DNA from: Streptomyces hirsutus
GTDB lineage: Bacteria > Actinomycetota > Actinomycetes > Streptomycetales > Streptomycetaceae
Length of the DNA: 64,000 bases
Assembly: GCF_001418415.1 (NCBI RefSeq)
Contig: NZ_LIQT01000072.1
Coordinates: 1-64,000 of the forward strand
Reading direction: 5' to 3'
Made by a program: the position numbers and the translations under genes. Under the pieces are notes generated by a model. It was not told where the DNA came from. It saw nothing but the letters and a program-made list of their open reading frames with translations, and did not search any database. Position 1 is the first letter of the stretch. Each line of letters begins with the position of its first letter. This document shows, one piece after another, positions 1 to 10,108 of this stretch.

Positions 1-2
1 GC

Positions 3-665
3 TCACCCGAGCCCCACGAACCCCGACTCGTACGCCACGATCACCGCCTGCGTACGGTCCCGCGCCCCCAACTTCGTCAGCACGGCGCTCACATGCGACT
101 TCACCGTCTCCACCCCTACCACCAGCCGACCGGCGATCTCCGCGTTCGACAGACCCCGCGCCATCAGCCGCAGCACCTCCGCCTCCCGCCCGGTCAGCCC
201 CGCCCGGTCCAGCACGGCCCGTGCCGCACGGTTGCCGCCGCTCTCGCCGTACTCCGCGGCCAACTGCCGGACCGATGCGGGGAACAGCAGTGACTCGCCC
301 TCGGCGACCAGCCGCACCGCGTGCACGATCTCGGCGGGCCGCGCCCGCTTCAGTAAGAACCCGTCGGCACCCACGCGCAGCGCCTCGTACACGTACTCGT
401 CCTGCTCGAACGTCGTCACCACGATGATCTTCGGCGGGTCCTCGACCGTCCGCAGCACGGCGCGGGTGGCCTCGATGCCGTCCATGAGCGGCATGCGCAC
501 GTCCATGGCGACCACATCCGGCCGCAGTCGCCGTACCAGCGGGATCACCGCCGCCCCGTCGGCCGCCTCCCCGACCACCTCGATGTCCGGCTGCGCCTCC
601 AACACGGCCCGCAGACCCGCACGTACGAGGGGTTCGTCGTCGACGAGCAGAACGGTGATCGGCAT
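3..665 (-). CDS. NarL/LuxR-family response regulator
   Basis: Two-component response regulator of 220 residues. The N-terminal receiver domain has the acidic pair near residues 9-11, the phosphoacceptor Asp at about 55 in the stretch VAMDVRMP, the Thr of VVTT near 84 and the conserved Lys at about 106. A LuxR-type helix-turn-helix follows at roughly 150-205, with LTGREAEVLRLMARGLSNAEI. It should bind DNA after phosphorylation by the histidine kinase encoded just upstream on the same strand (714-1868), about 50 bases away. The divergent ABC exporter genes at 1978-3626 are the obvious target, but that is inferred from position. The gene is complete and its stop is at the very edge of the window. 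Confidence 0.95.
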   Translation of the reverse strand: MPITVLLVDDEPLVRAGLRAVLEAQPDIEVVGEAADGAAVIPLVRRLRPDVVAMDVRMPLMDGIEATRAVLRTVEDPPKIIVVTTFEQDEYVYEALRVGADGFLLKRARPAEIVHAVRLVAEGESLLFPASVRQLAAEYGESGGNRAARAVLDRAGLTGREAEVLRLMARGLSNAEIAGRLVVGVETVKSHVSAVLTKLGARDRTQAVIVAYESGFVGLG

Positions 666-713
666 CCGGTCAGCCTAGATCAGCACGCCCCCGTGCAGCC
701 CACACGCCCCTGT

Positions 714-1868
714 TCAGCCCAGCGGCAGCTCGACCCGGACTCGCCAGTCGCCCTCGTCCGGGCCGGTCCGCGCCCGGCCGCCCAGCAGAGCGGCGCGCTC
801 GCGTATGCCGCGCAGCCCGCTGCCGCGGCCGGGGCCCGACACCCCCTCGGCCAGCGGATTGCGGATCTCCAGCAGCAGTGTGCCGTCGGCGACGCACACC
901 CTCGCCCGCACCGGAACCGGCCCCGCGTGCCGCAGCGCGTTGGTCAGGGACTCCTGGAGGATGCGGTACCCCTCGCGTGAGACCGGGCCCGGCACGGTCT
1001 CCAGGGGGCCGGACACCTCGGCCTCGAGCTTCACCCCGGAGGCACGGGCGGACTCCAGCAGACGGTCGGCGTCCACGAGCGTCGGCCGGCTGCTCACGGG
1101 TCTCTCCGGCTCGCGCAGGATGCCGAGGACCCGGTCCAGGTCCTCCAGAGCGGTCCGGCCGGTCTCCTCGATGGCCTCCAGCGCCCGGTCGGTGAAGGCG
1201 GGGTCATCCGCGGCCCGCGCGGCGCCGGCCTGAACCACGGCGATCGTCAGGGCATGACCGATGGAGTCGTGCAGCTCGCGCGCGATGCGGGTGCGCTCCA
1301 GGAGCTGTTCGGTCCTGATCTCCAGGGCGGCCAGACGTTCGGCGGGGGAGGGGCCGAGCAGACGGCGCGCGGCGGCGGTGATCAACTCGCCGAGACCCAC
1401 CGTCGTCGCGTACAGCAGGACCAGGAAGACCGGGATCAGCAGTGCGTAGGCCCAGTGCGGCGACGCGTCCTCCAGCAAGGGGATGCCCCTCGGCGCGTGT
1501 CCCATGGCTATTTCTCCCGAGCCGTAAGCCAGGAGTGGCAGCCAGGTCGTGGTGACCCCCGTCACTATCGCCAGCCCCACCCGCGCCGCCAGCCACAGCA
1601 CGGTCCGCCACCGGTCCCACCAGCTCGCCGACGGCTCCTCGGAGAACTCCGACTCCCGTTCGTCGGATGCCAGCAGCAGCCGGGCCTGTATGCCCTCGCC
1701 CCTGCGCACCGCCGGGACCAGCCCCAGCGGAATCAGCACGAGCGCGGGCGCCCACGGGGCTGCCGGATAGATGAAGATCCAGATACTGAACGGCAGCGCG
1801 GTCACCCACAGATGCAGGATGCGGGTGTACGTCACCCCGCGCAGGAGCGGACGCAGGACGGTGGGCAT
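714..1868 (-). CDS. Sensor histidine kinase, NarL-partner (HisKA_3) type
   Basis: Membrane histidine kinase of about 384 residues. Hydrophobic segments near residues 15-55, 90-118 and 139-165 suggest four or five membrane helices. The HisKA_3 dimerisation domain follows, with the phosphoacceptor His at about 200 in RIARELHDSIGH, and then a C-terminal HATPase domain (GSGLRGIRERA glycine-rich box, end near the stop). The open frame runs further upstream to 2162, but that part overlaps the divergent ABC gene and lacks family features, so the ATG at 1868 was chosen. It pairs with the response regulator at 3-665 and diverges from the ABC exporter, a common arrangement for drug- or envelope-stress-responsive systems. 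Confidence 0.92.
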   Translation of the reverse strand: MPTVLRPLLRGVTYTRILHLWVTALPFSIWIFIYPAAPWAPALVLIPLGLVPAVRRGEGIQARLLLASDERESEFSEEPSASWWDRWRTVLWLAARVGLAIVTGVTTTWLPLLAYGSGEIAMGHAPRGIPLLEDASPHWAYALLIPVFLVLLYATTVGLGELITAAARRLLGPSPAERLAALEIRTEQLLERTRIARELHDSIGHALTIAVVQAGAARAADDPAFTDRALEAIEETGRTALEDLDRVLGILREPERPVSSRPTLVDADRLLESARASGVKLEAEVSGPLETVPGPVSREGYRILQESLTNALRHAGPVPVRARVCVADGTLLLEIRNPLAEGVSGPGRGSGLRGIRERAALLGGRARTGPDEGDWRVRVELPLG

Positions 1869-1977
1869 GGCGTCATCGTGCCAGCCGTCACCGGCGACCG
1901 GCCTCCCCCGCCCGGGGGAGACGGTCCCCCCGCCCGGGGGAGGTGCAGGCGCCGGCCCTGCGGCCACGCTGGTCCGC

Positions 1978-2898
1978 ATGACCAGCATCCACGTCCACGA
2001 CCTGACCAAGGAGTACGGCAGCCGGCGCGCCGTCGACCATCTCACCTTCCACGTTCCGCCCGGCCGTGTCACCGGTTTTCTCGGCCCCAACGGCGCCGGA
2101 AAGTCCACCACCATGCGGCTGCTGCTCGGCCTCGACCGCCCGACGTCCGGCTCCGCCACCATCGGCGGCCAAGACTACGCCACACTGCGCGAACCCCTGC
2201 GCCGCGTCGGCGCCCTGCTGGACGCGCAGGCCGCGCACGACTCCCGCACCGGCCGTGACCACCTGCGCGTCCTGGCCGCGAGCAACCGCATCCCGGACCG
2301 CCGGGTCGACGAGGTACTGGAGGAGACCGGCTTGGCCTCGGCGGCCACGCGCAGGGTACGGACGTACTCCCTGGGCATGCGCCAGCGGTTGGGCATCGCC
2401 GCCGCGCTGCTCGGCGACCCGGAGGTGGTCATGCTCGACGAGCCCTCCAACGGGCTCGACCCGGAAGGGATCGTGTGGGTGCGGCAGTTGCTGCGCCGAC
2501 TCGCGGACGAGGGGCGCACCGTGCTGGTCTCCAGCCATCTGATGAACGAGACGGCGTCCTTCGCCGACCACCTCGTCGTCCTCGGCCGGGGCCGGCTGCT
2601 GGCGGACACCCCGATGCGCGCGTTCATCGAGTCGCGCGTGCGTCCCGCCGTCCGTATCCGCACCTCGGACCCCGTCGCGCTGAAGAGCGCGCTCGCCCCG
2701 CACGGCCACGAGGCCGTCGAGCAGCAGGACGGGCACTGGACCGTGCAGCACGCACGCGTGGACGACATCGGACGCCTCGCGTCCGCCGCCGGCGTGCCGA
2801 TCCTCGAACTCGCCGCGGAGGAAGGCACGCTGGAACAGGCTTACCTGGACCTCACAGCAGCCGAGACCGAGTTCACCGCTTCGCCCCAGGAGGCCTGA
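1978..2898 (+). CDS. ABC transporter ATP-binding protein (exporter type)
   Basis: ATPase subunit of about 306 residues. Walker A is GPNGAGKST at residues 36-44, the ABC signature SLGMRQR at 131-137 and Walker B VVMLDEPS at 150-157, followed by the D-loop region GLDPEG and the switch His in SSHLMNE. The roughly 90-residue C-terminal tail after the nucleotide-binding domain is typical of bacitracin or lantibiotic-type drug exporters (DrrA/CcmA-like). The ATG at 1978 gives the canonical start of the nucleotide-binding domain; the open frame begins earlier but overlaps the divergent kinase. It ends 2 bases before the permease gene. It probably energises export of an antibiotic or lipid under control of the adjacent two-component system (inference). 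Confidence 0.92.
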   Translation: MTSIHVHDLTKEYGSRRAVDHLTFHVPPGRVTGFLGPNGAGKSTTMRLLLGLDRPTSGSATIGGQDYATLREPLRRVGALLDAQAAHDSRTGRDHLRVLAASNRIPDRRVDEVLEETGLASAATRRVRTYSLGMRQRLGIAAALLGDPEVVMLDEPSNGLDPEGIVWVRQLLRRLADEGRTVLVSSHLMNETASFADHLVVLGRGRLLADTPMRAFIESRVRPAVRIRTSDPVALKSALAPHGHEAVEQQDGHWTVQHARVDDIGRLASAAGVPILELAAEEGTLEQAYLDLTAAETEFTASPQEA

Positions 2899-2900
2899 CC

Positions 2901-3626
2901 ATGCAGTTCGCACCCGTACTCCACGCCGAGTGGCTGAAGATCCGCACGCTCCGCTCGCTTCTGGGCGCGCTGGCGGTGCTGTTCGTGACGACCACCGCGT
3001 TCTCCGCGCTCGCCGGTGCGTCGAGCACGTCGGAACCCGAGTTCGACCCGTTGTTCACGACCCAGTTCGGGGTCTTCCTGGGACAGATCGCCGCGATCTC
3101 CTTCGGTGCCATGGCGGTGTCGGCCGAGTTCCGCAACGGTGCGCTGAGACTGTCGCTGGCGGCCGTCCCGCAGCGCGGGCACTGGTTCGCGGCCAAGATG
3201 ACCGCCATCGCCCTCCCGGCTCTCGCCGTCGGCCTGCTGACCGCCCTGGCCTCCCTTTTCGCGGCAAGGGCGACGCTGGGCCCGGCGGCGGACGGGCTCA
3301 CCACGGGCGAGCAGGCGCGCGCGGTCGTGGGCTGCGGCATCTACCTCATGCTGATGGCCCTGTTCGCGGCCGGACTCGCGACCCTGCTGCGCAGCGGTGT
3401 GACGACGCTGTCCCTGCTGATCCCGTTCATCCTGATCGTGTCGTTCGTGATCGGGGACGCGGCCGGCACGGCCGTCGAGTTCATGCCCGACCGCGCCGGT
3501 CAGGTGATCCTCCAGCAGACGTACGACGGGCCGCTCGGCCCCTGGTCCGGGCTGGGAGTGACCGCGCTGTGGGCCGCCGCGGCGCTGCTGGCGGGGGTCT
3601 GGAGACTGCGTCGCCGGGACGCCTGA
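2901..3626 (+). CDS. ABC transporter permease (ABC-2 type)
   Basis: Integral membrane subunit of about 241 residues. Hydrophobic segments lie near residues 20-40, 52-75, 98-120, 135-165, 170-190 and 215-235, fitting a six-helix ABC-2 permease. The start ATG at 2901 follows the ribosome site CAGGAGG at the end of the ATPase gene, so the two are translationally linked. Together with the ATPase it forms a half-size exporter of the type often found beside NarL-type two-component systems. The substrate cannot be read from sequence. Confidence 0.9.
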   Translation: MQFAPVLHAEWLKIRTLRSLLGALAVLFVTTTAFSALAGASSTSEPEFDPLFTTQFGVFLGQIAAISFGAMAVSAEFRNGALRLSLAAVPQRGHWFAAKMTAIALPALAVGLLTALASLFAARATLGPAADGLTTGEQARAVVGCGIYLMLMALFAAGLATLLRSGVTTLSLLIPFILIVSFVIGDAAGTAVEFMPDRAGQVILQQTYDGPLGPWSGLGVTALWAAAALLAGVWRLRRRDA

Positions 3627-3713
3627 CGGACAGGGTGCCGACGCGCCGTCAAGTTCCAGGGACGGTGGGGTCACCGGCTCCATGAGCAGCGCACAGCGCA
3701 TCGCCCCCATCGA

Positions 3714-3752
3714 CGGGCCGCGCTCCGCCTCCTCCCTGCGGAGCGCGGCCCG
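3714..3752 (+). terminator. Strong hairpin terminator after the ABC exporter
   Basis: A near-perfect 14-base inverted repeat (GGGCCGCGCTCCGC at 3715-3728, its complement at 3738-3751) with a 9-base loop lies about 90 bases after the permease stop. There is no T-run, as is usual in streptomycetes. It probably ends the ABC operon and insulates the symporter gene downstream. Confidence 0.7.
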
Positions 3753-3820
3753 TCGGACGGTGGCTTCGCGGGACCGGATTCCCTGTGTACGCCCTGACAC
3801 CACTAGGCGGTCATTTCTGA

Positions 3821-3854
3821 ACAAGTCGGGCGCTCCGTCGCAGTTGCGACTTGT
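3821..3854. promoter_or_regulatory. Nested inverted repeats upstream of the symporter leader
   Basis: Two overlapping palindromes lie here. ACAAGTC (3821-3827) pairs with GACTTGT (3848-3854), and inside them GTCGCA-GT-TGCGAC (3837-3850) is perfect. They sit about 45-75 bases upstream of a possible promoter at 3896-3923 and about 350 bases upstream of the symporter start. Their symmetry suits a dimeric repressor or activator site. The binding protein is unknown. Confidence 0.35.
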
Positions 3855-3895
3855 AAAGAGAGAGCTGCAAAGATCCTGATGTGGGAATAACGAAG

Positions 3896-3923
3896 TTGGA
3901 CAGGATGGGCGTTGCAGTGTAAA
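3896..3923 (+). promoter_or_regulatory. Possible sigma-70-type promoter for the symporter leader RNA
   Basis: TTGGAC at 3896-3901 and TGTAAA at 3918-3923 are separated by 16 bases, resembling a housekeeping promoter in an otherwise GC-rich region. Transcription would begin near 3930, just ahead of the structured RNA. This assignment is by pattern only. Confidence 0.35.
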
Positions 3924-3929
3924 CATCAG

Positions 3930-4053
3930 TTGTCTGCCTCGTGTAGCTGCGAGGCAGCTCTCCGTGGATCTCCGGTAGGGCCGAAGGGTGCCACCGTCGG
4001 CAGAAGCCGATGCCCTGAAGCCGGTTTGCGGGCCCAAAGGGGCCCGCTGTTTT
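3930..4053 (+). ncRNA. Structured leader or small RNA ending in an intrinsic terminator, upstream of the symporter
   Basis: Three helices can be drawn. Stem A is CTGCCTCG (3934-3941) with CGAGGCAG (3950-3957). Stem B is a long interrupted stem closed by CCGG (3972-3975) with CCGG (4021-4024) and AGGGC (3977-3981) with GCCCT (4012-4016), enclosing the small hairpin TCGGC-AGAA-GCCGA (3997-4010). A terminator follows: GCGGGCCC (4028-4035), loop AAAG, GGGCCCGC (4040-4047), then TGTTTT. T-rich terminators are uncommon at this GC content. It is either an attenuator or riboswitch controlling the symporter, 150 bases downstream, or a free small RNA. I could not match it to a known riboswitch class. 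Confidence 0.5.
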
Positions 4054-4203
4054 GTGAGCGCCCCCGGCTTCAGCGACGACGCGCCGGGTGGCGAGATGGA
4101 GTGCGTCCCCGGGCCTCCGGCGCATGGATGCGTTTGGCATGTCCTGGGCGAGTCTTCGGTGCGGTCGCTGACGCCGGGCTCGATGAGTCGAAGGAGGTGG
4201 CGT

Positions 4204-5958
4204 GTGTCGGGCGGAACGGATACGGCCCAGTTCAGCGCCGTGGTTGTTGTTGGCTTGCTGGTCCTCTTCTATGGGGGGACCTTTCTGATCTCGACCCGTA
4301 TCGGCAAGAGGGAGGAGAACGCCGACGGGTACATGACGGCCGGCAACAACGTCGGATTCGGCATCTCGGCCGCCAGCATGACGGCGACATGGATCTGGGC
4401 ATCCTCGATGTACGCGTCCGCCACGTCGGGTTACACCTACGGCATCTCGGGCCCCATCCACTACGGGCTCTGGGGCGCCCTGATGATCCTTTTCATCTAC
4501 CCCTTCGGCAAGCGCATCCGTAAGGTCGCCCCCAAGGCGCACACCCTGGCGGAGGTCATGTACGCCCGCCACGGCCGCTCCAGCCAGTTGATGCTCGCGG
4601 GCTCCAACGTCGTCGGCAGCCTCATCAGCCTGATGTCCAACTTCATCGCCGGCGGCGTGCTGATCTCACTCCTGTCACCGTTCAACTTCATCCAGGGCGT
4701 CGTCTGCGTCGCCGCGGGTGTGCTGCTCTACACGCTGTGGTCCGGGTTCCGCGCCTCCGTCATGACCGACTTCGTGCAGGTCGTCGCGATGCTCGGTGCC
4801 GTGGCCGTGATCGTCCCGTTCATCTTCTTCGCGGCCGGCTTCCCCGCGGCGTTCGAGACCGGTGCGGACAACCTGACCCCGCAGCAGGGGAACTTCTTCT
4901 CCAGCGAAGCCTTCATGGGGCAGGGCGCCCCCTACATCGCCGCGGTGCTGGCCTACGCGATCGGCAACCAGACCATCGCCCAGCGTCTTTTCGCGGTGAA
5001 GGAGAGCCTGATCAAGCCGACCTTCATCACCGCGACCATCGGGTACGGCGCCATGGTGATCGGCATCGGCATGCTCGGCGTGCTCGCCCTCTACCTGGGC
5101 TTTGAGCCGTCCGGTGGCGACCTCAACAACCTCATCCCCGAGATGGCCGCCGAGTACCTGCCGCCCGCGCTGCTGGCCCTGTTCTTCATCATGATCGTCG
5201 GCGCGCTGTCCTCCACCGCCGACGCGGACCTCGCCGCCCTCTCGTCGATCACCATGGCCGACGTCTACGGCCAGGGTGTCGGCAAGGAGAAGGCCGACCC
5301 GAAGACGATGCTGCTGGTCGGCCGGATCACCATGGTGGTGGCCACCGCGCTGGGCGTCACGTTCGCCAGTCTCCAGCTGAGCATCCTCGACCTGCTGGTC
5401 TTCGTCGGCGCGCTGTGGGGCGCGCTGGTCTTCCCGGTGCTGGCCAGCTTCTACTGGGAGAAGGTCACGAACAAGGCGTTCACCACCTCGGTGCTCGTGG
5501 CGCTCGCGGTCTTCCTGCCCGTGCGCTTCGGCTGGATCCCCGTGGACGGCGCCTTCGGCATCGTCGTGGACGTGCTGGCGGTCCTCGGCATCGGTGTCGT
5601 CCTCGGCCTGATGGTCTTCGGCTTCCTGGGCGCCAGGGCGGCGAAGACCGTCGGTGTGCTGGCCGTGCTGGTCTCCGCGCCGTTCGCCATCGGATCCCTG
5701 CACGAGTACGCGACGCTGTGCGGTTCGCTCGTCGCCTACTCGGTGAGCACCGTCATCTGCTGGGCCATGTCCGTACGGCAGGAAGAAGGCTTCGACTTCT
5801 CCGTCATCGCGGAACGCACCGGCAACTTCGACGACGGCGGCGCCGCCGCGGCGACCGCCGACGGGCAGGGGGAGGCACCCCCTGTCCCCGGCCGGGCCCA
5901 GCGCCCCGGAGGCGCCCCGGACGCGGGCGACCTCGAGCCCGCCGCACACACCAAGTGA
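4204..5958 (+). CDS. Sodium:solute symporter (SSS family)
   Basis: Membrane transporter of about 584 residues with around 13 hydrophobic segments, matching the SSS/LeuT-fold family. Recognisable features are GYMTAGNNVGFGISAASMTA in the first unwound helix, the sodium-site region ALSSTADADLAALSS near residue 335-350, and a hydrophilic, Pro/Ala-rich C-terminal tail. The GTG at 4204 was chosen because AAGGAGGTG at 4191-4199 sits 5 bases upstream; the frame is open back to 3988, but that part overlaps the leader. The likely role is Na+-coupled uptake of a small organic solute; the nearest family resemblance is to urea- or carboxylate-type symporters, unproven. It is co-transcribed with the 42-residue gene that follows 16 bases later. 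Confidence 0.92.
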   Translation: MSGGTDTAQFSAVVVVGLLVLFYGGTFLISTRIGKREENADGYMTAGNNVGFGISAASMTATWIWASSMYASATSGYTYGISGPIHYGLWGALMILFIYPFGKRIRKVAPKAHTLAEVMYARHGRSSQLMLAGSNVVGSLISLMSNFIAGGVLISLLSPFNFIQGVVCVAAGVLLYTLWSGFRASVMTDFVQVVAMLGAVAVIVPFIFFAAGFPAAFETGADNLTPQQGNFFSSEAFMGQGAPYIAAVLAYAIGNQTIAQRLFAVKESLIKPTFITATIGYGAMVIGIGMLGVLALYLGFEPSGGDLNNLIPEMAAEYLPPALLALFFIMIVGALSSTADADLAALSSITMADVYGQGVGKEKADPKTMLLVGRITMVVATALGVTFASLQLSILDLLVFVGALWGALVFPVLASFYWEKVTNKAFTTSVLVALAVFLPVRFGWIPVDGAFGIVVDVLAVLGIGVVLGLMVFGFLGARAAKTVGVLAVLVSAPFAIGSLHEYATLCGSLVAYSVSTVICWAMSVRQEEGFDFSVIAERTGNFDDGGAAAATADGQGEAPPVPGRAQRPGGAPDAGDLEPAAHTK

Positions 5959-5974
5959 GACAAGAGGAGGCACA

Positions 5975-6103
5975 GTGACCGTCGCTCTGAGCGTCTACGT
6001 CCTGATGTGGCCCGTCGCCGTGGCCGTCATCCTGTTCGTGATCAGCCGTGGGTTCTTCCGCGAGTGGCTCGAAGCCCGCCGCAACGGCCAGGACATGATC
6101 TGA
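5975..6103 (+). CDS. Small single-helix transporter subunit (42 residues)
   Basis: A short gene: GTG at 5975 preceded by AGAGGAGG (5963-5970), stop TGA at 6101. The product has one hydrophobic helix (about residues 5-25) followed by a basic amphipathic tail (FREWLEARRNG) and ends QDMI. Its size, single helix and position immediately after a sodium symporter match the small accessory subunits that accompany several Na+-coupled transporters. It probably stabilises or modulates the symporter in the membrane. Confidence 0.8.
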   Translation: MTVALSVYVLMWPVAVAVILFVISRGFFREWLEARRNGQDMI

Positions 6104-6117
6104 CCCGCGCCGTAGCA

Positions 6118-6166
6118 CCAGGCCCTGTCCTCAGGACCCCATGGGGGTTCCGAGGACAGGGCCTGG
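6118..6166. terminator. Bidirectional terminator between symporter operon and purB
   Basis: CCAGGCCCTGTCCTC (6118-6132) is the exact reverse complement of 6152-6166, with a 19-base loop that itself contains GGACCCC...GGGGTTCC and can extend the stem. It lies between two convergent genes and should stop transcription from both sides. Confidence 0.85.
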
Positions 6167-6173
6167 GAGCGGG

Positions 6174-7616
6174 TCAGAGAATCGCCCCGGGAGTGTAGGC
6201 GGCGGCTTCCGGGTGCTGCTTGACGATCTCGTCGACACGGCCCACGACGGCGGCGACCTGGGCGCTCGCCGCACCCGTGAACGACAGCTTGTCCGCCATC
6301 AGCGCGTCCAGCGCGGACCTGTCGAGGGGGATCCGGTCGTCGGCCGCGAGCTTGTCGAGCAGGTCGTTGCGCTCGGCGCCCTGCTCACGCATCGCGAGGG
6401 CCGTGGCGACGGCGTTCTCCTTGATCGCCTCGTGCGCGACCTCACGGCCGACACCCGCGCGCACCGCGCCCATCAGCACCTTGGTGGTGGCCAGGAACGG
6501 CAGATAGCGGTCCAGCTCCCGGGCGACGACCGCCGGGAACGCGCCGAACTCGTCGAGCACCGTCAGGAACGTCTCCAGCAGACCGTCGAGCGCGAAGAAC
6601 GCGTCGGGAAGCGCCACCCGGCGCACCACCGAGCAGGACACGTCGCCCTCGTTCCACTGGTCGCCCGCCAGCTCCCCGGTCATCGAGGCGTAGCCGCGCA
6701 GGATCACCATCAGGCCGTTGACGCGCTCGCAGGAACGGGTGTTCATCTTGTGCGGCATCGCGGACGAGCCGACCTGGCCCGGCTTGAAGCCCTCGGTGAC
6801 CAACTCGTGCCCGGCCATCAGCCGGATGGTCTTCGCCAGCGACGACGGGGCCGCCGCCAACTGCACCAGCGCGGTCACCACCTCGTAGTCCAGCGACCGC
6901 GGGTAGACCTGTCCGACCGAGGTGAACGCCTCGGCGAAACCCAGGTGCCCGGCGATCCGACGCTCCAGCTCCGCGAGCCGGTCCACGTCGCCGCCCAGCA
7001 GGTCCAGCATGTCCTGCGCCGTACCGACCGGGCCCTTGATGCCCCGCAGCGGATAGCGGCCCAGCAGCTCCTCCAGCCGGCCGTACGCGACGAGAAGCTC
7101 GTCGGCGGCGGTGGCGAAGCGCTTGCCGAGCGTGGTGGCCTGGGCCGCCACGTTGTGCGAGCGGCCGGCCATGACCAGCTCGCCGTACTCACCGGCCAGC
7201 CTGCCGAGCCGGGCCAGCACCGCCACCGTACGGTCCCGCATCAGCTCCAGCGACAGCTGGACCTGCAGCTGCTCCACGTTCTCGGTGAGGTCGCGGGAGG
7301 TCATCCCCTTGTGCACGTGCTCGTGCCCGGCGAGGTCGTTGAACTCCTCGATCCGCGCCTTCACGTCGTGCCGGGTCACCTTCTCGCGCTCCGCAATGGA
7401 GGCCAGGTCGACCTGGTCGAGGACCCGCTCGTAGTCGGCGAGCGCCGCGTCCGGCACCTCGACACCGAGGTCCTTCTGCGCCCGCAGCACGGCGAGCCAG
7501 AGCTGCCGCTCCAGCCTCACCTTCTGCTCGGGCGACCAGAGCGTGGCGAGCTCGGCGGAGGCATAACGTCCGGCGAGGACGTTCGGGATACGGGGCTTGG
7601 CGGGCGCAGCAGTCAC
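6174..7616 (-). CDS. purB: Adenylosuccinate lyase
   Basis: Enzyme of purine biosynthesis: it cleaves SAICAR to AICAR and adenylosuccinate to AMP, both releasing fumarate, in the cytosol as a homotetramer. The 480-residue product carries the fumarase/aspartase-superfamily signature in GSSAMPHKMN (catalytic Ser loop) and the conserved segments TSRDLTENVEQ and GRSHNVAAQ, plus the N-terminal substrate region GRYAS. The GTG at 7616 gives the length usual for actinobacterial PurB; the frame stays open further upstream into transposon remnant DNA. It is a single gene, convergent with the symporter operon. Confidence 0.95.
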   Translation of the reverse strand: MTAAPAKPRIPNVLAGRYASAELATLWSPEQKVRLERQLWLAVLRAQKDLGVEVPDAALADYERVLDQVDLASIAEREKVTRHDVKARIEEFNDLAGHEHVHKGMTSRDLTENVEQLQVQLSLELMRDRTVAVLARLGRLAGEYGELVMAGRSHNVAAQATTLGKRFATAADELLVAYGRLEELLGRYPLRGIKGPVGTAQDMLDLLGGDVDRLAELERRIAGHLGFAEAFTSVGQVYPRSLDYEVVTALVQLAAAPSSLAKTIRLMAGHELVTEGFKPGQVGSSAMPHKMNTRSCERVNGLMVILRGYASMTGELAGDQWNEGDVSCSVVRRVALPDAFFALDGLLETFLTVLDEFGAFPAVVARELDRYLPFLATTKVLMGAVRAGVGREVAHEAIKENAVATALAMREQGAERNDLLDKLAADDRIPLDRSALDALMADKLSFTGAASAQVAAVVGRVDEIVKQHPEAAAYTPGAIL

Positions 7617-7699
7617 GTGCACGGAGTTTACCCGGCGTCCAAGGAGACTCCGAACCGTCCATGCGGTCCGGAAAGACCAGGTCGGACACCTTCCGGCCT

Positions 7700-8105
7700 G
7701 GGCTCTCCACCGGTTCCGTGAGATGCGTGGGAGACGACGAGGGCCCGCCGGAGCACTCCGGCGGGCGTTCGTAGCACGCCTGGGTGCGCGGGTCGAAGCA
7801 CAGGCGGGTCTGCGCGATCCGGTGCAGGGCGGCGTCGGCCTGCCGGCCGCCGCCGCGGTTGAGGCGGAGGTACGGCCTGTTTGCCGAGAGCGCTCGACGG
7901 GGCTGACCCCGCACAGCGCGGCGAGGGACGCCTCACTGCCCGGACGCTCCGGTTGTCCCCCACCGTGATCGGCAAGGTGACGGCCGTCCGGACCGATGCC
8001 CACCCCTGTGAGCGGCTGCGGGGCGTGGCGGTCCACGATCCGGGCCAGGCGGTCTTCCAAGCCCCGGATCTGTTCGGTGAGCTGCCCGATTCGGTGGGAC
8101 CAGCA
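7700..8105 (-). pseudogene. IS110-family transposase, C-terminal remnant with frameshifts
   Basis: Pieces of an IS110/IS116/IS902 transposase C-terminal domain are readable in three successive frames: QLTEQIRGLEDRLARIVDRH, then SEASLAALCGVSPVE (the hallmark region around the catalytic Ser loop), then LRLNRGGGRQADAALHRI and LCFDPRTQACYE. The N-terminal RuvC-like DEDD half is missing and no frame is continuous, so it is inactive. No intact element ends were identified. The remnant stops next to a 39-base sequence that is repeated at 16672. Confidence 0.8.
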
Positions 8106-8116
8106 GGCTCAGCGTG

Positions 8117-8155
8117 ATGCGGCCGGCCTGGAGCACAAGCGTCGCGCTGGACGAA
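8117..8155. repeat. 39-base dispersed repeat, copy 1
   Basis: The sequence starting ATGCGGCCG and containing CTGGAGCACAAGCGTCGCG is repeated at 16672-16710 in the same orientation, with about 4 mismatches. Here it joins the broken TPR regulator to the IS110 remnant; at the other site it joins an IS3 orfB to an IS630-like remnant. Being at two gene breakpoints suggests a recombination or transposon-end sequence. Confidence 0.7.
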
Positions 8156-8590
8156 CTCCCGCACGGCCGACTCACGCCGCCAGGGGGCCAGGGCCGCGTT
8201 GAACTCACGGACGTAGTCCGTGGCCCGGCTCGGCTGGACGTGGGCGAGGATGTCGACGGACCGGTTGCCGAGCTCGAGTCCGTGGTCGAGTCGCGGGCCT
8301 GGCGGTGGGAGGGCCCGACGATGGCGAGCCGCATGCCGACGGAGCGGGTGAACACGCCCGTCGGCATCGCGGTGGCCTGCTTGTTCCAGGCCAGTGCCGT
8401 CTTGGGGTTCTTCGGGTCGCGGAAGACCTCGGCGGCGTCCGCGGACAGGCGTAGGGACTGCATGGCCATGGTGGTCAGCACATAGCAGCCGAGCTGTACG
8501 TCCCCGCCCGCGCGGGCCATCCGCAAAGCCTGGATGAAGTGCCGCTGGGCCACCTCGTGCTGGCCGACGTACTGGCTCTGACCAGTCGCT
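8156..8590 (-). pseudogene. TPR-containing transcriptional regulator, 5'- and 3'-truncated
   Basis: Reading on the minus strand, the fragments HEVAQRHFIQALRMARAGGD, VLTTMAMQSLRLS and MPTGVFTRSVGMRLAIVG, followed in a shifted frame by RATDYVREFNAALAPWRRES, belong to the C-terminal TPR repeats of a regulator family abundant in Streptomyces (NsdA-like helix-turn-helix plus TPR). The N-terminal DNA-binding half is absent. At least one frameshift occurs near 8310, and the end runs into the 39-base repeat at 8117-8155. It is non-functional. Confidence 0.7.
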
Positions 8591-8750
8591 CCCGAGTCAG
8601 GAAATAGCTGGTCATGCGCACATTTTCGGGCTCGGGTGCGGAGTAGGGTGGAGGCGCCGGGAGCTCTTCGCACGCCGGTTCCTCTGCGGTGTCGTTCCCG
8701 GTGATCGACAAGGCCGGGCCGCCCCACGAGCCCGGGGGCAGGTCCGCGCC

Positions 8751-9287
8751 ATGACCGTGACCATCGACCGTACGGCATCGAGCAGGCGCGCACCGTCGCT
8801 TTCGGCTCGCCTGTGCCTGACGCCCGCGCCGGGCGGGCTGGACGGCACGTGGTGGCCTCGCTCCCGTGCCCTCACCCGTGAGCTGCCAGCCTTGACAGCC
8901 GCGCTGGGCGACCTCTGGGGCCGCATCACAGGCGTCACGGTGAACCCGGACCACTGGCCCGTCATCCCGCATTGGGTGTCCGTCGCCGGGCGCACCGTGC
9001 ATGTGGGCTGGTCCACCGAGGAGCAGGATCCGCACCGGATGACCCTTTTCTCCACCGGTGGCCGCCGGGACGTGCTGGCGATTCCGCCGGAAACCGGTGT
9101 GGATGCCGCCGCACGGCTGATGGCGGGTGACGGTATCGATGCCCCGGGCCGGGAGGAAGCAGCAGACAGGATCGATGCCCGAAGCAGGGAAGAAGCGTGG
9201 GAGACCGACGGCGGGGCAGGTCCGCCGTCGTTCCTGCCCCGGTCCATCGGCTCGACAGGGCGTTCGCCCGCCGGCCAAGGGATGTGA
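8751..9287 (+). CDS. DUF5994 family protein
   Basis: Soluble protein of 178 residues with the family pattern GGLDGTWWPRSRALTRELPA near residues 28-47, followed by a beta-rich core (GRTVHVGWSTEEQ, MTLFSTGGRRDVLAIPPETG). Family members are small actinobacterial proteins of unknown function. The last 50 residues after MAGDGID are low-complexity and charged, unlike the shorter paralogue at 10109. The stop lies 7 bases before the next gene, so the two are probably co-transcribed. Confidence 0.75.
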   Translation: MTVTIDRTASSRRAPSLSARLCLTPAPGGLDGTWWPRSRALTRELPALTAALGDLWGRITGVTVNPDHWPVIPHWVSVAGRTVHVGWSTEEQDPHRMTLFSTGGRRDVLAIPPETGVDAAARLMAGDGIDAPGREEAADRIDARSREEAWETDGGAGPPSFLPRSIGSTGRSPAGQGM

Positions 9288-9294
9288 GAGGACC

Positions 9295-9822
9295 ATGACT
9301 GTCATCGCCGTGGCCGCGCTGCTCGTCCTGATCGCTGTCGGAGTCGCTCTGATCCACCGGCTCAACGCTCAGCACGACGAACGGATCGCTGCCTTCCACT
9401 ACAGCGATGCCCTACCGGGGATCGGCCGCCGGACCCGGAGGCACCGCCGGCCGGCGGTGGACGCGACCGCCCCGACACGCCCCACCGCGACAGCGACTGC
9501 GGATGACATCGACTTCGGCCCAGTCGGGGGCCGTAGAGGACGGCAGGTCATGGCGATACTGCGAGACCGGAAGACGTACCGCGAGAAGATCATGCGGGCT
9601 CTGTACGAAGCCGCCGAAGGCAATCGGCTCCTGGGCGTCGACGGGGCGAAGCTCCGCAACGACCTCGGCATCCCTGAGCAGGACATGGCCGCTGCCTGTA
9701 CGTATCTGGCGGGTGAAGGCTGGGTCGTCGTCGACTGGGCGAGGGGCAACACGCCCACGATGATCACGCTGACGCACCAGGGGATCCGGCGGATGGAAGC
9801 AGAAGAGGAAGGGCGTGGCTGA
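9295..9822 (+). CDS. Membrane-anchored winged-helix-like protein of unknown function
   Basis: About 175 residues. One N-terminal transmembrane helix (MTVIAVAALLVLIAVGVALI, residues 1-20) is followed by a basic linker and a soluble domain from about residue 85 (MRALYEAAEGNRLLGVDGAK...DLGIPEQDMAAACTYLAGEGW...ITLTHQGIRRMEAE). The C-terminal pattern of helix, helix, then WVVVD and an ITLTHQGI strand resembles a winged helix. The ATG at 9295 follows GAGAGGACC. It sits directly after the first DUF5994 gene and 290 bases before the second. No function is assigned. Confidence 0.7.
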   Translation: MTVIAVAALLVLIAVGVALIHRLNAQHDERIAAFHYSDALPGIGRRTRRHRRPAVDATAPTRPTATATADDIDFGPVGGRRGRQVMAILRDRKTYREKIMRALYEAAEGNRLLGVDGAKLRNDLGIPEQDMAAACTYLAGEGWVVVDWARGNTPTMITLTHQGIRRMEAEEEGRG

Positions 9823-9946
9823 GTCGCCACGTCGGCTTCTCGGACCGAAGTGAACCTTCGTAAGGATTGCTTATGTCGGGATAGTCCCTTTGGCGTAATG
9901 TGGAAAGCGGGTCGGCGCACGCTCACGTGCAATGACCCGGAAGGGC

Positions 9947-9972
9947 GGCTCCGGCGGGTATACGCCGGAGCC
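9947..9972 (+). terminator. Hairpin terminator
   Basis: GGCTCCGGCG (9947-9956) and CGCCGGAGCC (9963-9972) form a perfect 10-base stem with a 6-base loop, about 125 bases after the stop at 9822. There is no T-run. It separates the first gene pair from the second DUF5994 gene. The remaining 9823-10108 sequence shows no coding signal. Confidence 0.55.
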
Positions 9973-10108
9973 GTTGCCTGTCTCCGGAACCACCTGCGGC
10001 GAAGCGTTCACGCGAGCGTCGTGCGGAGTACGGTGAGGTGGCAGGGTCATTTCATATCACGGTCGCACGCCCTGCGGTCGCACTACTCTCTGCGGACGGG
10101 CGGACCTC

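Follow-up and report, generated by a model that had tools for sequence, protein, structure and literature searches.

Among described systems, the nearest case found to the leader analyzed here is the TIGR03647 riboswitch candidate, which precedes a different symporter gene pair; in the available text of its description, the motif lies before a small-subunit gene that is followed by the gene for the large subunit, TIGR03648 (PMC6429828). For Streptomyces transcripts, the accessible part of a study of S. avermitilis derives TANNNT as the −10 motif from mapped starts and reports that roughly 25% of the mapped 3′-ends carry a U-rich motif (PMC8780764).

The leader in question lies in a 64,000-nucleotide stretch of Streptomyces hirsutus DNA (contig NZ_LIQT01000072.1, positions 1 to 64,000), hereafter called the window, for which an initial annotation had proposed an orphan riboswitch or attenuator ahead of a sodium symporter. 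The following features were assigned, in the coordinates of the window:

3837–3857, + strand: operator-like palindrome GTCGCAGTTGCGAC with TTGTAAA, found by pattern match
3896–3926, + strand: weak candidate promoter, TTGGACA ... TGTAAACAT with an 18-nt spacer, found by eye
3934–3957, + strand: first stem, 9 bp (folds, z −2.7)
3972–4024, + strand: second stem region (folds weakly, z −1.65)
4011–4016, + strand: TGCCCT, decayed position of the TANNNT −10 motif kept in 21/24 leaders, from comparison with the other leaders
4025–4047, + strand: kept TTTGC and hairpin (stem-loop 4028–4047), found in 22/22 leaders and in two more leaders besides
4048–4057, + strand: T-rich tail TGTTTTGTGA, from a sequence scan and T counts across leaders
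4191–4198, + strand: Shine-Dalgarno sequence AAGGAGGT, from the sequence, kept in the Streptomyces alignment
4204–5958, + strand: sodium:solute symporter (SSF/SSS family; Pfam PF00474, NCBIfam sss and panF under the cut-off)
5975–6103, + strand: 42-aa putative transporter small subunit (NCBIfam NF038354, above the cut-off)

The segment 4025–4057 is on balance, if narrowly, interpreted here as a conserved hairpin with a T-rich tail at the start of a transcription unit, and not as the expression platform of a riboswitch. What had been a possible riboswitch in the window is thereby recast as a testable proposal: a start-site hairpin that has lost its −10 motif in one clade.

The symporter and the hairpin ahead of it

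The symporter, whose start was taken as the GTG at 4204, is rare in Streptomyces (8/384 genomes, the window's own genome counted), and its top-scoring solved relatives are DUR3 urea symporters. The gene after the symporter encodes the small subunit, for which NF038354 was the sole match, and the two genes are not the TIGR03647/TIGR03648 pair. For the sampling of orthologs, 93 matches to the symporter were listed, 63 of them without a locus, and 40 of those 63 were added. The neighboring genes at nine symporter loci gave no functional clue, with the exception of L075 in Pseudonocardia, where the symporter is flanked by genes for a glutamate-synthase-like protein and a trimethylamine N-oxide permease (L075:972–6497), a neighborhood that hints at a small nitrogenous solute as the substrate.

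The T-tailed, terminator-like hairpin reported by the initial annotation at 4028–4053 is present and forms a stable fold. The stem-loop with its tail (4028–4057) consists of an 8-bp all-GC stem and a 4-nt loop followed by the T-rich tail, and it has the composition of an intrinsic terminator, namely a GC-rich stem and then a U-run, with eight GC pairs and six T among the first eight bases of the tail. The folding energy of the segment 4020–4060 is −20.7 kcal/mol (z −2.0), and terminator-like sites occur at 4 per 10 kb, compared with 1.8 ± 1.4 in shuffled sequences. The accompanying statement that U-run terminators are rare at such GC content was too strong, given the U-rich motif at ~25% of S. 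avermitilis 3′-ends in the accessible part of that study (PMC8780764). The absence of a recognized riboswitch class was borne out, as a search of the window against Rfam gave no match at the gathering threshold and nothing relevant within 3600–4300 at E-values up to 10.

Conservation was assessed in 24 distinct Streptomyces leaders, comprising the window, 21 loci (the Streptomyces or Streptomycetaceae ones among 54 loci, which together with the window make up a set of 22 leaders), L007 and L179; the remaining loci from whole genomes repeat these. The block TTTGC-stem-loop-stem was identified in all 24. In the set of 22, 129/132 cells of the inner six stem pairs are standard pairs, a number reached in 1/10,000 permutations of the right arms among sequences (mean 123.2 paired cells), with the position of the right arm picked to maximize pairing and with kinship among the leaders inflating this and the other conservation statistics. 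Compensatory GC-to-AT double changes were found at pair 3, which is A-T in two leaders, and at pair 5, in four; the stem cells include 12 G-U pairs as against 3 unpaired cells, all three in the imperfect stems of L038 and L083. The tail contains at least 5 T in 8 bases in 11/22 leaders and at least 4 in 19/22, and those of L039, L080 and L084 contain only 2–3. The flanks GTTTGC and GTGAACG are also conserved, and in many leaders the flanks (GGTTTGCG and TTGTGAGC in the window) can pair to lengthen the stem, with 75% of cells paired and 6 double changes. A helix scan over the 24 aligned leaders gave its top ranks to the terminator-like hairpin, the flanks of the hairpin and the upstream DNA palindrome, and RNAalifold over the same alignment gave only −5.4 kcal/mol.

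Two further observations concern this region. In L046 (2813–2854), the GTTTGC/GTGAAC flanks can pair, in which case the U-rich tail would bulge out. A leader peptide or N-terminal extension beginning at a GTG 3′ of the hairpin was considered and rejected, as neither frames nor lengths are conserved in the 22 leaders.

A TANNNT hexamer was identified in 21/24 leaders, ending 8 bases before TTTGC (9 in L038 and L083), and 20/24 carry an extended −10 element (TGNTANNNT, TGnTANNNT). The joint pattern of −10 motif and hairpin occurs in 5/392 Streptomyces genomes, all five of which carry the symporter. In five leaders (L040, L041, L047, L050 and L179), only ~70 nt separate the start of the block from the gene, ~117 fewer than in the window (188 nt), and the −10 motif and hairpin are retained despite this shortening. 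Because the −10 motif lies just before the block, the hairpin would correspond to about nucleotides 5–25 of the transcript, which leaves no room for an aptamer ahead of it. In the orthologs bearing the −10 motif, transcription is thus predicted to start just before TTTGC and to place the hairpin within the initial ~30 nt of the mRNA, where it would most likely shield the 5′-end or, alternatively, cause early pausing or termination.

TANNNT is absent from just three leaders, that of the window and those of L044 and L082, its two closest relatives. The position near the 5′-end is therefore predicted from the −10 motif in 21/24 leaders and not in the window, for which a start site at this place is suggested by its relatives, since the window itself has no −10 motif. 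In this clade the −10 motif has decayed (G for A at the second position), and the hairpin, retained internally, could act as a weak terminator.

Upstream sequences and readings of the Streptomyces leader

An operator-like palindrome (TYGC..GCRA), with GCAAA or a variant thereof on its 3′ side, was found in 19/24 leaders, compared with a mean of 0.04 and a maximum of 1 in mononucleotide shuffles. Relative to the hairpin block, its position is −185 to −189 (typically ~187 bp; −197 in L080), and this spacing is nearly fixed although the intervening sequence has diverged. The two halves co-vary in many leaders (12 double changes) but not in all (L035, L042 and L046), so degenerate DNA half-sites are likelier than an RNA stem. 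The palindrome is the ground for proposing control at the DNA level: judged from the sequence, the symporter would be switched on and off through this operator-like site. Further conserved blocks, CATAACAAAG and GGACATGTC, were observed near the palindrome in many leaders.

The remaining elements described by the initial annotation fared unevenly. The promoter-like sequence gave no match in a consensus promoter scan of positions 1–10,000, which found none; by eye, a weak candidate consists of TGGACA (3897), 18 nt and AAACAT (3921), preceded by TGT, and is near-identical only in L044 and L082. Both stems fold, the second weakly, and the entire stretch 3927–4053 has a z of −2.5 (only −1.1 for 3927–4215), but neither is conserved across the 24 leaders: the helix scan placed nothing at either stem, and where the first stem aligns, folding did not exceed that of shuffled sequences (mean z 0.19, 24 leaders). 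A conserved RNA helix at that place was accordingly rejected, short complementary words that recur in some orthologs being absent from the scan. By eye, L044 and L082 keep the outer six of the nine pairs of the first stem (two as G-U) and have lost the inner three, and little of the second stem is retained in them. Covariation was found at the hairpin and none at the upstream stems, and no match to an Rfam family appeared.

The window, L044 and L082 have in common the operator-like site, the candidate upstream promoter and the hairpin. The stretch from promoter to hairpin has diverged among them, and the hairpin block of the window differs from theirs at no more than one position. Their hairpin energies range from −18.3 to −21.5 kcal/mol, compared with −6.6 to −16.1 kcal/mol in the other 19 leaders, and in all three the hairpin is followed by four or five consecutive T. 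The hairpin is an internal element in this clade, which may have switched promoters, and with its stronger stem and near-identical block it may work as an attenuator or as the end of a short RNA. The near-identity of the block despite the lost −10 motif argues for a role that is not tied to the 5′-end, and the T-rich tail found in most leaders exceeds what a mere stabilizer would need, which counts against the start-site stabilizer reading, as do the unpaired stem cells of L038 and L083 and the low RNAalifold energy. The loss of the −10 motif in this clade is in effect a natural experiment on whether a 5′-end hairpin can turn into an attenuator.

Such an attenuator would require RNA from ~3930 to fold in the window's clade and the hairpin with its U-run to end transcription near 4053 unless an antiterminator forms. 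The shared candidate promoter, the strong hairpin with its run of T and the conservation of the hairpin amid diverging surroundings all speak for it. Its support nevertheless comes from three sequences of one clade, among which the upstream stems are partly or not kept (by eye), and no aptamer or antiterminator conserved ahead of the terminator was seen either among these three (by eye) or in the 24 leaders; we consider it unlikely, and the attenuator arrangement originally proposed is possible in this small clade only, since a −10-like hexamer precedes the hairpin in 21/24 leaders. The anatomy of promoter, stems and terminator would also describe a small RNA gene at 3927–4053 with its own promoter, standing before the symporter by chance, but the hairpin accompanies the symporter in 24 leaders, the upstream promoter is present in only three and the RNA body is not conserved, which makes this reading very unlikely. 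It is more improbable still that the inverted repeat serves as an operator, bound by a protein at the DNA level. Positions downstream of the −10 motif are typical of repressor sites, and the conserved flanks GTTTGC and GTGAACG would fit one, but departures from perfect complementarity that are mostly G-U (12 as against 3 unpaired) are expected of an RNA and not of symmetric half-sites.

That the Streptomyces leader represents a new riboswitch class binding a metabolite is scarcely probable. The lack of an Rfam match and the structured leaders ahead of related symporters favor it, but the riboswitch proposed for the window is unsupported because the helix scan was empty at both upstream stems and a −10-like hexamer stands between the would-be aptamer and the hairpin in 21/24 leaders; moreover, most of the downstream leader is missing from five orthologs, and the covariance model of the Micrococcaceae leader described below matches neither the window nor 19 Streptomyces loci. 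A pseudoknot between the loop and upstream sequence (GGAGCC:GGCUCC) was rejected, as its pairing in 18 leaders (115/126 cells) is not above that of permuted sequences (mean 114.1). A stem around these segments pairs in 55/65 cells (permuted mean 47.5; 1/20,000) in only 13/18 sequences, lined up by hand, and is for that reason not claimed.

Leaders of orthologs outside Streptomyces

In the Micrococcaceae (Arthrobacter-type bacteria), the symporter is preceded by a different leader, which is built from helix P2, hairpin P3, located ahead of the Shine-Dalgarno sequence, and a pseudoknot in which the P3 loop pairs with UCACCGG. It was located with a covariance model:

L123:3157–3267, − strand: Micrococcaceae leader RNA
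L074:2824–2979, + strand: Micrococcaceae leader RNA
29 further matches: Micrococcaceae leader RNA

In 19 aligned leaders, 133/133 cells of P2 are paired, as are 126/133 of the pseudoknot and, with the register chosen for each sequence, 128/133 of P3. Among 14 distinct P3 stems, 93/98 cells pair, as compared with a mean of 72.8 and a maximum of 89 in 20,000 permutations to which the same choice of register was applied. When a single register is kept for all sequences, both sides have changed in 31 cells, compared with a shuffled mean of 13.2, and the covariation score of 0.258 exceeds those of all 500 shuffles and all slid controls; no excess was found in that register for pairs changed on both sides (7 vs. 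5.3 in shuffles; reached in 55/500) or for further pair types (19 vs. 18.3; reached in 222/500).

Across 97 sources, the model built from the 19 leaders recovered 11 loci that were not part of the seed. The alignment of the resulting 30 distinct rows, itself fitted to the model, has 63 cells with changes on both sides, where shuffles average 21.8; counted by pairs, such two-sided changes do not stand out from shuffles (8 vs. 7.3; reached in 225/500). The two sides change together in the new members: P2 goes from C-G to U-A and the pseudoknot from A-U to G-C (CAUCGG:CCGAUG in L147), and P3 changes likewise. In a search of 197 genomes of the family with stricter filters, by which weak matches can be lost, the model matched 24, at least 10 of these matches lying outside the seed, once each and, by coordinates, always directly before the symporter. 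A second, broken copy of the symporter in L194 (1501–3113) is still preceded by the leader RNA.

No Rfam match at gathering was obtained for L058, L059, L072, L074 or L076 (among 19 loci in which only tRNAs matched), nor for the L123 leader at E-values up to 1, and a literature search, thin in subscription journals, found no description of this leader. It is therefore put forward as a candidate orphan pseudoknotted regulatory leader RNA, and the orphan RNA that was proposed for the Streptomyces window, where it is not supported, has a counterpart in these orthologs. By eye, the 3′-arm of P3 or the linker that follows is complementary to the Shine-Dalgarno sequence in many members, which would suit a translational switch. 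At E-values up to 1, the model matched neither the window nor 19 of the 21 Streptomyces loci (L047 and L050 left out), and the Streptomyces leader is consequently not called a member.

It is conceivable, though we rate it as rather doubtful, that the Micrococcaceae symporter is governed by a new class of ligand-sensing riboswitch, made up of P2, the pseudoknot and P3, with the 3′-arm or linker alternatively pairing with the Shine-Dalgarno sequence, and that Streptomyces has replaced it with, or reduced it to, DNA operators and a start-site hairpin. If this is true, a single transporter shows control moving between RNA and DNA. Found only ahead of one uncharacterized symporter in the genomes searched, the Micrococcaceae leader offers a concrete orphan regulatory RNA, whose ligand would reveal the cargo of the symporter.

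The upstream regions of orthologs outside Streptomyces in general also favor the start-site reading of the hairpin. The motif TGTTANNNT is enriched in them, with 32/111 as compared with a shuffled mean of 4.3 and maximum of 9; these 111 "distinct" regions (of 113) still include near-duplicates at shifted offsets, so the counts overstate independence. After removal of repeats of the 50-nt target, the 50 nt following TGTTANNNT have a mean z of −1.48 (n = 29), vs. −0.30 (n = 138) in later windows of the same leaders. Tessaracoccus L057 and L127 show the same order as Streptomyces, that is, TGTTAAGGT, 8–9 bases and a GTTTGC hairpin. A third, structured-looking leader type was observed 60–160 nt before the start in L043, L045, L052, L057 and L063, with the complementary segments GCGCGTC...GACGTGC and CCCGCGG...CCGCGGG, and the Brevundimonas orthologs L065, L068, L069, L073 and L085 have a GC-rich leader, some 200 nt long, that is highly conserved.

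Comparison with known systems

The leader resembles the TIGR03647 candidate in that the available text describes an orphan RNA motif that precedes the genes of a two-subunit sodium/solute symporter, with the ribosome-binding site implicated (PMC6429828). The two differ in gene order, the large-subunit gene here standing ahead of the small-subunit gene (NF038354), and no family in Rfam matched the leaders searched. ANTAR-target RNAs are likewise leader hairpins in actinobacterial mRNAs, according to the accessible part of PMC8164766, but a simple scan (at least 4 pairs) of the window leader found no pair of A1/G4 hexaloop stems 2–25 nt apart, and such a pair was present in 1/113 other upstream regions. 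With intrinsic terminators and attenuators the hairpin shares a GC stem and a T-rich tail, and it differs from them in the weak tail of some orthologs, in showing no conserved antiterminator and in its predicted position at the transcription start in most leaders. Stem-loops that stabilize mRNAs from the 5′-terminus, of the ompA and papA type (PMC3997798), would resemble it in lying a few nucleotides from the (here predicted) 5′-end; the Streptomyces hairpin, whose stabilizing role is putative, is distinguished from them by its conserved loop, flanks and U-rich tail.
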